From positions 1-51,511 of the forward strand of contig PARB01000105.1 of NCBI GenBank assembly GCA_002709505.1: a DNA stretch of 51,511 nt, written 5' to 3'. Of this stretch, positions 12,280-18,685 are shown one piece after another (position 1 is the first letter of the stretch; every line of letters starts with the position of its first letter). The DNA comes from Paracoccaceae bacterium. GTDB taxonomy: Bacteria > Pseudomonadota > Alphaproteobacteria > Rhizobiales > Stappiaceae. The notes below the pieces were generated by a model. The model saw only the letters and a program-made list of their open reading frames with translations, was not told the origin of the DNA and made no database searches. Both the position numbers and the translations under genes were made by a program.

Positions 12280-15200
12280 TCAGGCGAGCTGGACCTCGAC
12301 CACGCCCTGGATCGTCTTCATCGCGCCGGCGATCTGGGGCGACAGGCGATAGCCGCCCGGAAGCTTGACCTCGACCTCCCTTGCCCCGCCCTCGGCCAGC
12401 ACGACGACACTGACATCGCCATCCCCGCGCTCGCTCAGGTGACGCTGCAGCCGGCGGGCCGCTTCGGGGTGATTGAGGAACACCGTCAGGCTCCGCTGGA
12501 CCTGGGCGGCCGCATCCTCGAGCGGCTTGACCGACTGGATCCTAAGGCTTGGCTCATCGTCGCGCATGTCGGCGCCGACGAGCAGCACCACGGATTTTCC
12601 AGGCTCCACGGCATCGCGATATTGCTGCAGGGATTCCGAAAACAGCAGCGCCTCATACTGGCCCGTTGGATCGGACAGACGCACGATCCCCATGCGGTTG
12701 CCGGAGCGGGTCTTGCGCTCCTGGCGTCCGAGCACGGTTCCGGCAAGCCGGCCGGCGGTCGCGCCCTGCTTCACCGCCTGCGCGAAATCCGCCCACATCT
12801 GCACCCGCATGCGCTCCAGCAGAGGCATGTAGGAATCAAGCGGGTGGGCGGACAGATAGAAACCGATGGCCGATTGTTCGCGCTGCAGCCGTTCCTCCGG
12901 CAGCCAGTCGTCCGTATTGGGGAGGTGCACCTCCTCGCCCCCTTCGCTGCCGCCGAACATGTCGTTCTGCCCGCTCAGCGCCTCTTCGTCGGTGCGCTGC
13001 GCGACCCCCAGAATGCGGTCCATCCCGGCAACCAGACGGGCCCGGTTGGAATCCAGCGCATCGAAGGCCCCGGCGTTGACAAGGCTTTCAAGCGTCCGCT
13101 TGTTCACCTGGCGCGCGCTGATCCGGGTTGCGAAATCGCCGATGCTGGCGAAGGGCTTGTCGCCGCGCACCTCGATGATGTGCTCCACCGCCTGTTCGCC
13201 AACGCCCTTGATCGCGCCCATGGCGTAACGGATCTTCCCGTCCTCGACCGAGAAATGCACGCCGGAATGGTTCACCGAAGGCGGCAGGACCTCCACCTTC
13301 ATCCGCCGCGCTTCGACACAGAAGTCGCTCAGCTTGTCGGTGTTTCCAAGATCCAACGTCATCGACGCGGCCATGAATTCGACCGGGTGGTTGGCCTTGA
13401 GCCAGGCGGTCTGGTAGGAGACCAGCGCATAGGCGGCGGCGTGCGACTTGTTGAAACCATAGTTGGCGAATTTCCCGACCAGATCGAAGATCGAACCGGC
13501 CTGCCCCTTGTCGATGCCCCGCTCCACGGCCCCGTCGACGAACCGCGCCCGCTGCACTTCCATTTCCGCGGCGATCTTCTTGCCCATTGCGCGGCGCAAA
13601 AGATCGGCTTCGCCGAGCGAATAGCCCGACAGAACCTGGGCGATCTGCATCACCTGTTCCTGATAGACGATGATGCCGTTGGTCTCGATCAGGATCGGCT
13701 CAAGCAGCGGATGCAGGCAATCGGGCTCCTGCTCGCCGTGCTTGACCGCATTGTAGACCGGGATGTTGTCCATCGGGCCCGGGCGGTAGAGCGCGACCAG
13801 GGCGATGATGTCCTCGAAGCGGTCTGGCTTCATGCCCGCGATCGCACGGCGCATGCCCTGACTTTCCAGCTGGAACACGCCGACGGTCTCGCCCGCCGCC
13901 AGCAGGCGATAGGTGGCCGGGTCGTCCATCGGCAAGCCGGCCATGTCGACGGTGATGCCCTTGTCGGCGATCAGCTTCACCGCCGTATCGATCACCGTCA
14001 GCGTCTTCAGGCCGAGGAAGTCGAACTTGACCAGTCCCGCTTGCTCCACCCACTTCATGTTGAACTGCGCAACCGGCATGTCGGAGCGCGGGTCGCGGTA
14101 GAGCGGAACCAGCTGCTCCAGCGGACGGTCGCCGATCACCACGCCGGCGGCATGCGTCGAGGCATGCCGGTAGAGGCCCTCGAGCTTCTGCGACATCGCC
14201 AGCAGACGTGCGACGATCTCCTCGTCGCGCTGCGCCTCCTGCAAGCGCGGCTCGTCGCGGATCGCCTGTTCGAGCGTTACCTGCTGGCCAGGCGTCGCCG
14301 GCACCATCTTGGACAGGCGGTCGACCTGGCCATAGGGCATCTGCAGGACGCGGCCGACATCGCGCAACACGGCGCGCGCCTGCAGCGTTCCGAAGGTGAT
14401 GATCTGCGCAACCTGCGCCCGGCCGTATTTCTCCTGAACGTAGCGGATCACCTCCTCGCGGCGGTTCTGGCAGAAATCGATGTCGAAATCCGGCATCGAC
14501 ACACGTTCCGGATTAAGAAACCGCTCGAACAGAAGCGCATAACGCATAGGATCAAGGTCAGTAATGGTCAATGACCATGCCACCAGAGAACCGGCACCCG
14601 AGCCGCGGCCCGGCCCGACCGGGATGTCATGCGCCTTCGCCCACTTGATGAAGTCGGCAACGATCAGAAAGTAGCCGGGAAAGCGCATCCGCTCGATGAC
14701 GCCAAGCTCATAGTCGAGACGGGACCAGTAATCCTCCTCCGACACATTCGGCGCGAGGCCATGTGCGGCCAGCCGGGCGGACAGCCCCTCCTTTGCCTGC
14801 CTGCGCAACTCCTCGACCTCGGCCGTGAAGGCCGCTTCCGGGTCGTCGGACGCACCGGCAAATTGCGGCAGGATGGGCGCGTGCTTGAGCGGGCGCGCAT
14901 GACAGCGGCGGGCGATCTCCACCGTGTTCGCGGTCGCCTCCGGCAGGTCGGCGAAAAGCTCCAGCATTTCCGCGCGGGTCTTGAAGCAATGCTCCGGTGT
15001 CAGCCGGCGCCGGTCGTCCTCAACGAGCACACGCCCCTCGGAAATGCAGATCAGCGCGTCATGCGCTTCGTAGTCGTCGCGATGGGCGAAGAACGGCTCG
15101 TTCGTCGCAACAAGCGGCAGGTCCAGCTCATAGGCGAGCGCGACCATATCGGGCTCCGTCGCGATCTCTTCCGGCATGTCGTGACGCTGGACCTCGACGT

Positions 15201-15720
15201 AGAGGCGGTCAGCGAAGCCGGCCTTCAAGGTCTGGAGCCGTGCACGCGCCAGGGTCATGTCCCCGGCGACCAGAGCTTGTCCGACCGGCCCGGCAACCCC
15301 GCCCGTCAGAAGGATCAACCCATCGGCATGATCCAGGAGACGATCCGAGGTCACATGCGCCTGGACGGAAGGGTCGGTATCCAGATAGGCCCGGCTGACG
15401 ATATCCATCAGGTTGGCGTAACCGGACTGATCGGCGGCAAGCAGCACGACATCGCTCAGATGGACAGTCTCGCGTCCCTTCTTCACACCGCCGTCCTGAA
15501 AATCGACCGGGATCTGCACCCCGACGATCGGCTGCACCCCCGCCCCCCAGGCCTTTTCCGAAAACTCGAGCGCGCCGAACAGATTGGCCGTGTCGGTGAT
15601 CGCGATCGCCGGCTGGTCGTCGGCACGCGCCAGATCGATGAGCCGGCCGAGCGGCAACGCCCCCTCAAGCAGCGAGAAAGCCGAATGCACGCGCAGATGC
15701 ACAAACCCGACGTCGGACAT
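12280..15720 (-). CDS. dnaE: DNA polymerase III subunit alpha
   Basis: A 1146-residue replicative polymerase. The N-terminal PHP domain opens FVHLRVHSAFSLLEGALPLG. The polymerase active site carries MPDFDIDFCQNRREEV with its two catalytic Asp, and upstream GPGRGSGAGSLVAWSL. The fingers motif YQEQVMQIAQVLSGYSLGEA and the GKFANYGFNKSHAAAYA segment are present. A helix-hairpin-helix and OB region follow (KTRSGNRMGIVRLSDPTG). This is the replicative DnaE1 type, not the short error-prone DnaE2/ImuC. The ATG at 15720 has AAGAGGG upstream. The gene follows the SOS-type 38-codon ORF by 187 bp with no clear terminator between. Confidence 0.96.
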   Translation of the reverse strand: MSDVGFVHLRVHSAFSLLEGALPLGRLIDLARADDQPAIAITDTANLFGALEFSEKAWGAGVQPIVGVQIPVDFQDGGVKKGRETVHLSDVVLLAADQSGYANLMDIVSRAYLDTDPSVQAHVTSDRLLDHADGLILLTGGVAGPVGQALVAGDMTLARARLQTLKAGFADRLYVEVQRHDMPEEIATEPDMVALAYELDLPLVATNEPFFAHRDDYEAHDALICISEGRVLVEDDRRRLTPEHCFKTRAEMLELFADLPEATANTVEIARRCHARPLKHAPILPQFAGASDDPEAAFTAEVEELRRQAKEGLSARLAAHGLAPNVSEEDYWSRLDYELGVIERMRFPGYFLIVADFIKWAKAHDIPVGPGRGSGAGSLVAWSLTITDLDPMRYALLFERFLNPERVSMPDFDIDFCQNRREEVIRYVQEKYGRAQVAQIITFGTLQARAVLRDVGRVLQMPYGQVDRLSKMVPATPGQQVTLEQAIRDEPRLQEAQRDEEIVARLLAMSQKLEGLYRHASTHAAGVVIGDRPLEQLVPLYRDPRSDMPVAQFNMKWVEQAGLVKFDFLGLKTLTVIDTAVKLIADKGITVDMAGLPMDDPATYRLLAAGETVGVFQLESQGMRRAIAGMKPDRFEDIIALVALYRPGPMDNIPVYNAVKHGEQEPDCLHPLLEPILIETNGIIVYQEQVMQIAQVLSGYSLGEADLLRRAMGKKIAAEMEVQRARFVDGAVERGIDKGQAGSIFDLVGKFANYGFNKSHAAAYALVSYQTAWLKANHPVEFMAASMTLDLGNTDKLSDFCVEARRMKVEVLPPSVNHSGVHFSVEDGKIRYAMGAIKGVGEQAVEHIIEVRGDKPFASIGDFATRISARQVNKRTLESLVNAGAFDALDSNRARLVAGMDRILGVAQRTDEEALSGQNDMFGGSEGGEEVHLPNTDDWLPEERLQREQSAIGFYLSAHPLDSYMPLLERMRVQMWADFAQAVKQGATAGRLAGTVLGRQERKTRSGNRMGIVRLSDPTGQYEALLFSESLQQYRDAVEPGKSVVLLVGADMRDDEPSLRIQSVKPLEDAAAQVQRSLTVFLNHPEAARRLQRHLSERGDGDVSVVVLAEGGAREVEVKLPGGYRLSPQIAGAMKTIQGVVEVQLA

Positions 15721-15907
15721 GAACCCTCTTCGACCCTTGAGCTCCTGCGCGAACGCCGGTCTGCATTCGCGCCCCGAGCGGGAAAATCCCGCAAGGAAAA
15801 AGAGCATCAAGTGTCGATGGTGCGAAAGCCCGTGTCGAGCCCCCGTACGGCTCCCTCCCCAGAAAGTGCCGGCTGCTCCACAGTGTCACAACAGGGGAAG
15901 AAGCGCG

Positions 15908-16024
15908 TCAGACCCGCGCAAGCTCGACCAGGACATCGCTCCAGATCAGCATCGTCGCGCCCAGCAGAACCAGGGAGCCAAGCGCCGCCAGGTCCTGAAG
16001 TGTCTCTCGAAAATCGTCGAGCAT
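15908..16024 (-). CDS. 38-residue single-span membrane protein, probable LexA-regulated gene
   Basis: Too short to be recognised by family. The ATG at 16024 is preceded by a very strong GGGAGGG (16029-16035). The N-terminal 13 residues form an acidic amphipathic helix (MLDDFRETLQDLAALG); residues 15-34 are a hydrophobic span (SLVLLGATMLIWSDVLV) and the tail ends ELARV. The promoter 35-65 bp upstream contains an exact alphaproteobacterial LexA box. By analogy with SidA, the 29-residue SOS-induced division inhibitor of Caulobacter, a role in checkpoint arrest is possible, but this is inference; no sequence homology is claimed. It could also be a leader ORF for dnaE. Confidence 0.6.
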   Translation of the reverse strand: MLDDFRETLQDLAALGSLVLLGATMLIWSDVLVELARV

Positions 16025-16060
16025 GGTGCCCTCCCGCGTCTCAAACCCTCGATAAAACCT

Positions 16061-16089
16061 AGTATGTTCTTTTTTTGTTCTTTTTGCAA
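16061..16089 (-). promoter_or_regulatory. SOS-type promoter with LexA box
   Basis: Minus strand: -35 TTGCAA (16084-16089), 17-bp spacer, -10 CATACT (16061-16066). The spacer contains GAACAAAAAAAGAAC (16066-16080), that is GTTC-N7-GTTC on the plus strand, the direct-repeat LexA site of alphaproteobacteria. It overlaps the -10, so bound LexA should block RNA polymerase. The T-rich N7 and flank also fit known alphaproteobacterial boxes. An 8-base core alone would be expected about once or twice by chance in 50 kb; the position inside a promoter is what carries weight. Confidence 0.65.
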
Positions 16090-16195
16090 GCCCCCTGCGG
16101 CGGACCGACCTCCGGCAGCGCAACTATGGTAAAGGGATCCTGAACAATGCCGGGAGCGCGGCCCTTCACCACCGCGCCACAATTCGCTTTCCCTC

Positions 16196-16224
16196 TTGAC
16201 CTTTTCGCCCGCCACCGCGATCTT
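16196..16224 (+). promoter_or_regulatory. probable promoter of the guanidine riboswitch / exporter unit
   Basis: -35 TTGACC (16196-16201), 17-bp spacer, -10 GATCTT (16219-16224). The -35 is good and the -10 is weak. Transcription would start about 16231, just before the first riboswitch hairpin at 16236. Confidence 0.4.
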
Positions 16225-16235
16225 GCCGGCATCCA

Positions 16236-16281
16236 GAGGACGACCTCCCCGCCATGGGCAAATTCACCGGGACGACCCGGT
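16236..16281 (+). ncRNA. guanidine-II (mini-ykkC) riboswitch
   Basis: Two hairpins with identical ACGA tetraloops: P1 GAGG-ACGA-CCTC (16236-16247) and P2 ACCGGG-ACGA-CCCGGT (16266-16281), separated by 18 nt. Paired stems with ACGR loops are the defining feature of the mini-ykkC class, which binds guanidinium and typically controls SugE-type exporters. The ribosome site GGGGA (16285-16289) of the downstream exporter begins 4 nt after P2, as expected for translational control. Confidence 0.88.
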
Positions 16282-16294
16282 CATGGGGAATGAC

Positions 16295-16606
16295 ATGTCC
16301 TGGATTCTTCTGATTGTTGCCGGTCTGCTCGAGGTCGTCTGGGCCTTCGCGATGAAACAATCCGCCGGCTTCTCTCGCCTCACCCCGACACTCTTGATGC
16401 TGGTCGCGATGCTCGGCTCCTTCACCTTGCTCGCGCTTGCCATGCGCAGCCTGCCACTCGGTACCGCCTATATGATCTGGACGGGCATCGGCGCGGTCGG
16501 CGCGTTCATTGTCGGGGTCGGATATCTCGGAGAAGAGCTGTCCCTGCAGCGGCTGATTGCTGCCGCGCTGATCATCGCCGGCATGGTGACGATGAAACTG
16601 TCGTGA
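16295..16606 (+). CDS. gdx: SMR-family guanidinium exporter (Gdx/SugE type)
   Basis: A 103-residue inner-membrane protein with four transmembrane helices, which works as an antiparallel dimer exchanging guanidinium for protons. It begins MSWILLIVAGLLEVVWAFAM; Glu13 in the first helix is the essential proton/substrate-binding residue of SMR proteins. Gdx-type residues GTAYMIWTGIGAVG follow in helix 3. The ATG at 16295 is preferred to the ATG at 16283 because GGGGA lies 5 nt before it, and the earlier start would leave no ribosome site outside riboswitch hairpin P2. The riboswitch supports guanidinium as substrate rather than quaternary ammonium drugs. It is convergent with lolD. Confidence 0.92.
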   Translation: MSWILLIVAGLLEVVWAFAMKQSAGFSRLTPTLLMLVAMLGSFTLLALAMRSLPLGTAYMIWTGIGAVGAFIVGVGYLGEELSLQRLIAAALIIAGMVTMKLS

Positions 16607-16682: not shown

Positions 16683-17399
16683 CTAGAGTTCCACGACCTG
16701 CCGGTCGCGAAGCGTGATCCGGCGATCCATGCGCGAAGCGAGCTCCATGTTGTGCGTCGCGATCAGCGCCGCCAGACCCGACGCACGCACCAGCGCCACC
16801 AGCGCATCGAACACATAGGCGGAGGTCACCGGATCGAGGTTTCCGGTCGGTTCGTCGGCGAGGAGAACGCGCGGCGCATTGGCAACGGCACGCGCGATCG
16901 CCACCCGCTGCTGCTCGCCGCCGGAGAGCTCCGACGGCCGGTGATCGGCCCGGGGACCCAGCCGCATGTAGTCGAGCAGCTGGCTTGCGCGCTCGCGCGC
17001 CTCGCGCTTGTCGAGACCGCGGATCAACTGCGGCATCATCAGGTTCTCAAGCGCGGTGAACTCGGGCAAAAGGTGATGGAACTGATAGACGAACCCCAGG
17101 CTGAGCCGGCGCATGCGGGTTCGTTCGGCATCGGCCAACCCCTCGCAGGCAACGCCGCCGATCAGCACCTCGCCGCTGTCGGGACGCTCCAGCAGGCCGG
17201 CAATATGCAAAAGGGTGGACTTGCCGGCTCCCGACGGCGCGACCAGCGCGACGAGCTCGCCCGGGTTCAGCGCGAGATTGGCATCGCGCAGGATCTCCAG
17301 CTGGCCCTCGCCCTCGCGAAAGGCCCGGCACACCCCGGACAGAACCAGCGGCAGCGCGTCGGCCTGCCCGTCGTGCAGATGCTCCATATCCATCGTCAT
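16683..17399 (-). CDS. lolD: lipoprotein-releasing ABC transporter ATP-binding protein LolD
   Basis: A 238-residue ATPase that powers release of outer-membrane lipoproteins from the inner membrane to LolA. Walker A is APSGAGKST (residues 54-62), Q-loop Gln106, signature LSGGEQQR (158-165), Walker B VLLADEP (178-184), and H-loop in ATHN. The start at 17399 is chosen because its ATG overlaps the permease stop as ATGA. It is the last gene of proS-lolC/F-lolD. Confidence 0.94.
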
Positions 17400-18685
17400 T
17401 CGTACCTGAGCGCCTCGACCGGATCCAGCCGGGCTGCGCGCCATGCCGGATAGAGTGTCGCCAACAGCGACAGCACCATGGCCATCACGACGACGGAGAG
17501 CGTTTCGCCGGTGTCCATCTCCGCCGGCAGCCGGCTGAGGAAATAGAGTTCCGGCGAAAACAGCTCGGTGCGAGTCATCCAGGAAATCGCCTGCCGGATG
17601 CTCTCGATATTGAGACAGACCACAAAGCCGAGGAGAAAGCCGGCAAGCGTGCCGACGATCCCGATGCTCGCGCCGGTGATCACGAACACCCTGAGGATCG
17701 CGCCGCGGGTGGCTCCCATGGTGCGCAGGATGGCGATGTCGCGCCCCTTGTCCTTCACCAGCATGGTCATGCCGGAGATGATGTTGAGGGCCGCCACGAT
17801 CACGATCAGCGTCAGGATCAGGAACATCACGTTGCGCTCGACCTCGAGCGCTGAGAAGAACGTCATGTTGCGCGACCGCCAGTCGCTGACGAAAGCGGGC
17901 CGCCCCGCGCCCTCCTCGATCTTCGGGCGAAGCTCGCCGACCATGTCGGGATCCGATGTGAACACCTCGATCCCCGTGGCGATGCCTTCCTGATTGAAAT
18001 AAAGCTGCGCCTCCGTCAGCGGCATGAAGGCGATCGTGCCGTCGTATTCCGACATGCCGATCTCGAAGATAGCGGCAATCGGATACCCCTTGACGCGCGG
18101 CGTGACGCCAAGCGCCGTGACGTTTCCGCGCGGGCTGACCAGCGTGATGCGGTCGCCGACCGTCACGCCGAGCTGTTGCGCCATGCGGGTGCCGATCGCA
18201 AGCCCCTGCCCCTCGTCGAACCCGTCGAGTGTGCCGGTCTTCACCGTGTCGGCGACGAGCGGCAGCTTGCGCAGGTCCACTTCGCGAACCCCGCGCACCA
18301 GCGCGCCGAACGCCCCCGACGGTCCCGACACCAGTGCCTGTCCTTCCACGAAGGGAAGCGTGAAGGTGACGTTTTCCAGGTTCTCGATCCGGGAGGCGAC
18401 GGCGTCATAGTCGTCGAGCTCGCTGCCGATCGGCTGGATCAGCAGGTGACCGTTGATGCCGAGGATCTTCGACAGCAACTCCCCGCGAAACCCGTTCATC
18501 ACCGCCATGACGATGATCAGCGTGGCAACGCCGAGCATGATGCCGAGAAAGGAAAAGCCGGCGATCACCGAAATGAAGGTCTCCCGGCGCCGTGACCGCA
18601 GGTAGCGGCCGGCCAGCATCCACTCGAACCCGGCAAACATCCGGGTTTCACCCACGTCCCTGGTCGTCGCCGCGCCGTCTGTCAT
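17396..18685 (-). CDS. lolC: lipoprotein-releasing ABC transporter permease (LolC/LolE family, LolF-like)
   Basis: A 429-residue FtsX/MacB-type permease. A first membrane helix ([22 protein letters not shown]) is followed by a large periplasmic domain (about 60-285), then three membrane helices ([58 protein letters not shown]). Only one permease gene accompanies lolD, so the complex is presumably a homodimer as in LolF-type systems; the symbol lolC follows common usage. It begins 37 bp after proS and overlaps lolD by 4 bp. Confidence 0.92.

Follow-up and report, generated by a model that had tools for sequence, protein, structure and literature searches.

A 38-codon gene between a LexA-type box and dnaE is probably a diverged ortholog of the Caulobacter division inhibitor gene sidA

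SidA of Caulobacter crescentus (CCNA_02004; PMC10769358) is described in PMC4211646 as a 29-residue inner-membrane protein that acts on FtsW; it blocks division, interacts with both FtsW and FtsN, and is countered by suppressor mutations in ftsW or ftsI. A second inhibitor from the same species, the damage-induced, one-span DidA, is reported in PMC4211646 to be 71 aa long, SOS-independent, driven by DriD and bound to FtsN. The LexA box of C. crescentus is of the GTTC-N7-GTTC type (PMC9578287, Table 1). Similar damage-induced small membrane proteins that act late in division are found in other phyla, namely YneA in Bacillus subtilis, SosA in Staphylococcus aureus and ChiZ in Mycobacterium tuberculosis. 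All three are larger than the protein considered here. YneA binds FtsW, and low-confidence models published in 2026 put SidA at FtsW TM7, on the face opposite that of YneA, so that the action of SidA may differ from that of YneA (PMC13396833). Among the matches listed in the literature, no title or abstract beginning described a sidA outside Caulobacter. LexA control has also been assigned to dnaE: section 8 of PMC3323433 reports SOS regulation of this gene for C. crescentus and its recovery in multi-chromosome alpha-proteobacteria.

Here we compare with these systems a locus in a window of 51,511 nucleotides (the whole stretch of DNA analysed), which contains the following features.

16089-16084, minus strand: –35 element TTGCAA, its TTG present in 70% or more of the 28 family loci with an exact box
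16080-16066, minus strand: LexA-type box GAACAAAAAAAGAAC, a direct repeat GAAC-N7-GAAC (the plus strand reads GTTCTTTTTTTGTTC)
16066-16061, minus strand: –10 element CATACT, overlapping the box at its final base
16035-16029, minus strand: ribosome-binding site GGGAGGG, 4 nt 5' of the ATG
15908..16024, minus strand: 38-codon ORF, proposed sidA ortholog (ATG at 16024, TGA at 15910-15908)
12280..15720, minus strand: dnaE, DNA polymerase III alpha, the next large gene downstream after a 187-bp gap
16683..17444, minus strand: presumed lolD-like ABC ATPase, the upstream same-strand neighbour and a synteny marker
about 16295-16606, plus strand: presumed SMR/EmrE-like multidrug resistance gene, divergent from the proposed sidA promoter

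The first-pass annotation had described an SOS-type promoter with a LexA-type box between its –35 and –10 elements, followed by GGGAGGG and a 38-codon ORF with one hydrophobic span. All of these elements were located as claimed, on the minus strand, with a spacer of 17 between the two hexamers. By eye, 8 of the 12 hexamer positions agree with the consensus, and a promoter consensus scan of both strands with a threshold of 9 of 12 found none at the locus. The core GTTC-N7-GTTC occurs five times in the window versus 1.37 expected (0/100 shuffles reach five), in line with the earlier estimate of once or twice by chance, and the bare core taken alone is uninformative. Four further exact sites lie at 2521, 4103, 8198 and 40265. 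It is the conservation of the box and the reading frame that decides whether the locus is real.

We fetched 30 loci from the family, comprising the window's own locus, 13 from its genus and 16 from the rest of the family. The box is exact in 28 of them, and the other two (L024 and L025) have one mismatch by eye. The promoter consensus across the 28 loci with an exact box is TTGcAAAAAGAACAAAAc..GAACAta.T; in the –10 element, the first A and the last T are kept in at least 70% of these loci and the TA in 50-70%. Box and ATG are separated by 36-57 bp in 24 of these 28 loci and by 81-85 bp in three, the remaining one (L030) having been misassigned by the script, and GGGAGG was seen by eye 5' of the ATG in 11 of the 30. 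The ORF itself is under purifying selection: in five independent species pairs, 22 changes were counted at 147 synonymous sites and four at 423 non-synonymous sites, a pN/pS of 0.063 (Fisher P about 2e-10). Among the 24 distinct family proteins, the alignment shows Trp28 in every one, with Asp11 and Ala14 kept in at least 90%. The earlier claims of LexA-type control and of a real, tiny one-span protein were thus both upheld by the relatives.

The ORF translates to MLDDFRETLQDLAALGSLVLLGATMLIWSDVLVELARV (38 aa), in which a single hydrophobic stretch has its best 17-residue mean of 2.09 at residues 12-28. Scans of this peptide against Pfam and NCBIfam gave no family above its cut-off; NCBIfam returned none, and the best Pfam match was SelB-wing_1 (E 0.058, 13.6 bits versus a cut-off of 25). 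When 61 genomes were searched with the peptide at E ≤ 10, matches were found in 43, namely the window's own genome, 13/13 other members of the genus, 22/23 other members of the family and 7/24 other members of the order, these last being weak. A longer frame of 71 aa from a TTG start was rejected, since it would place the box inside the coding region and the conserved start is the ATG. Two loci from one family of the order (L046 and L047) keep the small ORF with a degenerate box (GAACAAAACATATAC and GAACAAAACAAATAC), possibly reflecting an altered LexA site or a loss of control.

We then compared this ORF with the region upstream of dnaE in Caulobacter. In genome G500, whose CtrA we take to match that of C. 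crescentus at 100% identity, one exact and two one-mismatch LexA boxes are followed by exactly 29 codons and then by dnaE. Among named genomes, a scan recovered 26 loci whose DnaE is 70-98% identical. L168 was truncated and excluded, which left 25 Caulobacteraceae-type loci (among them L179, also truncated). An exact box precedes dnaE in 23 of these and two one-mismatch boxes in L184, and an ORF of 29-30 codons precedes dnaE in 25/25; 29-codon ORFs occupy this place in C. vibrioides OR37 (L169) and DSM 9893 (L171). The published locus numbers point the same way: dnaE is given as CC1926 and recN as CC1983 (PMC1839093), and recN as ccna_02062 (PMC12700426), an offset of 79, by which dnaE and sidA would differ by no more than about one or two in locus number. 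Because the length of 29 residues, the position and the locus numbering agree, we take the Caulobacter ORF before dnaE to be the published SidA.

A profile combining 51 ORFs from the order of the window, several with starts set by eye and none from Caulobacter, was searched against 2,516 six-frame segments from the 25 Caulobacteraceae-type loci. The ORFs preceding dnaE took ranks 1-25, one per locus in 25/25 loci, and the first false match came 26th. The E-values of these ORFs, 0.0016-1.4 in a small database, are weak for each locus, so that the claim of homology depends on the consistency of rank and position. With a profile restricted to the family (24 ORFs), the top 10 matches were all correct, false matches were mixed in from rank 11, and 20/25 of the Caulobacteraceae-type ORFs were recovered at E ≤ 10. 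Against 1,959 segments from 80 regions of the class, the six best matches of the order profile were all boxed ORFs (E 1e-7 to 0.024); rank 7 was an unboxed chance match (E 0.15), and more boxed ORFs lay amid chance matches below. These results suggest that the window ORF is homologous to SidA, on the assumption that the Caulobacter ORF before dnaE is SidA. The first-pass annotation had proposed a SidA-like protein not related to SidA by sequence. The comparison and the kind of protein were well chosen; the lack of relationship looks wrong, since the window ORF shares with the 29-mers both the sidA position before dnaE and a detectable profile, and what was taken for a look-alike is probably an ortholog.

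The window protein resembles SidA in its LexA-type control, its tiny size with a single span, its place upstream of dnaE with lolD beyond, and its profile similarity. It differs in its length (38 versus 29 residues), its longer, acidic N-terminus, its C-terminal tail and its low pairwise similarity, and its activity is a prediction, whereas that of SidA is published. Since the N-terminus is basic in SidA and acidic in the window protein, the topology of the two may differ. If induced by damage, the protein would also resemble DidA and, in more distant organisms, YneA, SosA and ChiZ. We consider it likely that the window ORF is an unannotated ortholog of sidA whose product would arrest division at FtsW during the SOS response. 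Judging from SidA, LexA binding, damage induction, membrane insertion, contact with FtsW and division arrest are all expected of the window peptide. LexA bound to the box between the –35 and –10 elements would keep the promoter shut; upon DNA damage, active RecA would trigger LexA self-cleavage and release the promoter, and rapid synthesis of the 38-residue one-span peptide would follow. Once in the inner membrane, the peptide would hold the septal wall-synthesis complex (FtsW with FtsI and FtsN) inactive, and division would stay stopped until LexA returned. The block at FtsW, FtsI and FtsN is proposed because of the presumed orthology with SidA (PMC4211646).

Similar size, one span and SOS-type control would also fit a membrane-active peptide of the TisB/DinQ type, DinQ being a toxic single-span SOS peptide (PMC3567139). 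Such a peptide would insert into the membrane and lower its potential rather than target the divisome; antisense RNA control is a further mark of this type. However, the window ORF has its place and its profile in common with the Caulobacter ORF taken as SidA, and we regard such a peptide as unlikely here.

We further analyzed how widely the arrangement occurs. At E ≤ 1, the 24-protein family profile matched 212/297 genomes of the order, many of them weakly. Among 18 order loci obtained from the family-profile search, the box is exact in 12 and dnaE lies downstream in 16, although one of the 18 (L051) was read at the wrong place, where the contig ends. Two loci of the order, L041 and L049, have the box and the small ORF, with dnaE unmatched over a distance of about 1.5 kb, possibly through relocation of either dnaE or the small ORF.

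We surveyed the 500 bp upstream of dnaE in 164 genomes, comprising 54 from the order (of 57 searched; one was without a dnaE match, one was partial and one was counted under the class), 80 from the class (taken from 122 in which dnaE was matched) and 30 from the order of genome G373, which we take to be the Caulobacter order (of 31 searched, which were picked from 60). The sequence following each of the 164 upstream stretches was checked and reads as DnaE. We counted genomes in which dnaE is preceded by an exact box and then by an ORF of 24-60 codons with one span; 58/164 had this arrangement, versus 0.07 expected. The counts by sample were 24/54 in the order, 15/80 in the class and 19/30 in the Caulobacter order, with expectations from dinucleotide shuffles of 0.02, 0.02 and 0.03, respectively. 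These counts cover rows with an exact box only; among the one-mismatch rows, those of G454 and G457 appear to be fragments of the lolD frame, and that of G363 is uncertain. In addition, the wrong frame was picked for G423, and the 29-mers of G373, G490 and G510 fell below the hydropathy threshold. In the class, 64/80 genomes have no exact box in the 500 bp before dnaE (for G336, just 196 bp of upstream sequence). Likewise, an exact box before dnaE was found in 0/11 of the named loci L194-L204 (Dongia, Cypionkella, Acetobacter and others), whose DnaE is 49-54% identical to the query and of which L195 has a one-mismatch box. The DnaE match of L205 is just 26% identical, which makes the comparison unfair, and this locus was set aside.

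The neighbouring genes were compared in the same loci. In the window, the dnaE ORF runs from 12280 to 15810, and the ATG at 15720 was taken as its start. In 30/30 family loci, the small ORF is followed at about 0.1-0.5 kb by dnaE in the same orientation. A terminator consensus scan of both strands from 15650 to 16350 showed no terminator-like site (shuffles give 0.9), and co-transcription of the 38-codon ORF with dnaE is possible. The ORF at 16683..17444, which we take from its sequence to encode a lolD-like ABC ATPase, has an upstream match in 26/30 family loci and 13/25 Caulobacteraceae-type loci. Because the profile matches and the upstream lolD occur in both groups, the order lolD-sidA-dnaE looks ancestral. 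The presumed SMR/EmrE-like gene on the plus strand was matched in only 4/30 family loci and may be a recent neighbour.

The constant presence of dnaE raises the question of whether the box mainly regulates dnaE, the small ORF being a leader cistron or incidental. That dnaE is named in section 8 of PMC3323433, that it follows in all family loci and that the scanned interval between ORF and dnaE lacks a terminator-like site would agree with this explanation. However, the peptide is under purifying selection, with Trp28 invariant in the 24 distinct family proteins; the gap between ORF and dnaE varies widely in the dnaE-upstream survey (29-309 bp); and L041 and L049 keep box and ORF without dnaE nearby. 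We therefore think it quite improbable that dnaE is the main target, while co-regulation of dnaE is compatible with the ORF being a sidA ortholog. The site behind the earlier "LexA-regulated dnaE" is probably the same promoter region as that described here. What appears to be new, in comparison with PMC3323433, is that a conserved gene, putatively of the sidA type, lies between the LexA box and dnaE. As for a chance promoter-like sequence beside a chance ORF, the expected 1.37 bare cores in the window and hexamers matching at just 8/12 positions would allow it, but it is refuted by the joint conservation of box and frame in the family loci and by the 58/164 genomes found versus 0.07 expected, and it has next to no probability left.

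Taking the ORF as a sidA ortholog, we obtain a concrete candidate for the SOS division stop in the window's order, and the known checkpoint peptide would be more widespread than single-sequence searches show. A correction is also suggested to regulon maps that credit LexA control at this site to dnaE, and the diverged ortholog set would offer natural variation for mapping the inhibition of FtsW by a helix of about 30 residues. A broader proposal, on which our judgement is evenly balanced, is that sidA is an ancient alphaproteobacterial checkpoint gene, fast-evolving and easily missed, that lies before dnaE and is perhaps co-transcribed with it. If this is true, release of LexA would increase a division brake and the replicative polymerase at the same time. 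The earlier "LexA-regulated dnaE" would then chiefly, or jointly, represent regulation of sidA, and the peptide would supply the SOS division inhibitor still missing in rhizobia and their relatives, the group to which the window's order (presumably Hyphomicrobiales) seems to belong.

Finally, we examined the SOS setting in the window's own genome (G000). A lexA gene scoring above the NCBIfam cut-off lies at G000:C63 7758-8462, so that a repressor for the box is encoded. Searching the genome with a stricter form of the box gave 13 occurrences, and the reversed control gave two. The genome has the marks of an alphaproteobacterial SOS regulon, namely LexA and other genes preceded by the same type of box. 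At L269 (G000:C62:5237-5392), two LexA-type boxes lie in one promoter between divergent genes, which we take to be uvrA and ssb. A box with an immediate near-repeat (GAACAAATAGAGAAT) was observed at L262 (G000:C22:4037-4052), 51 bp before an unrecognised ORF of 483 aa, possibly a further SOS gene. At L264 (G000:C31:15600-15615), a box lies 167 bp upstream of an opposite-strand gene, presumably for a polysaccharide flippase.
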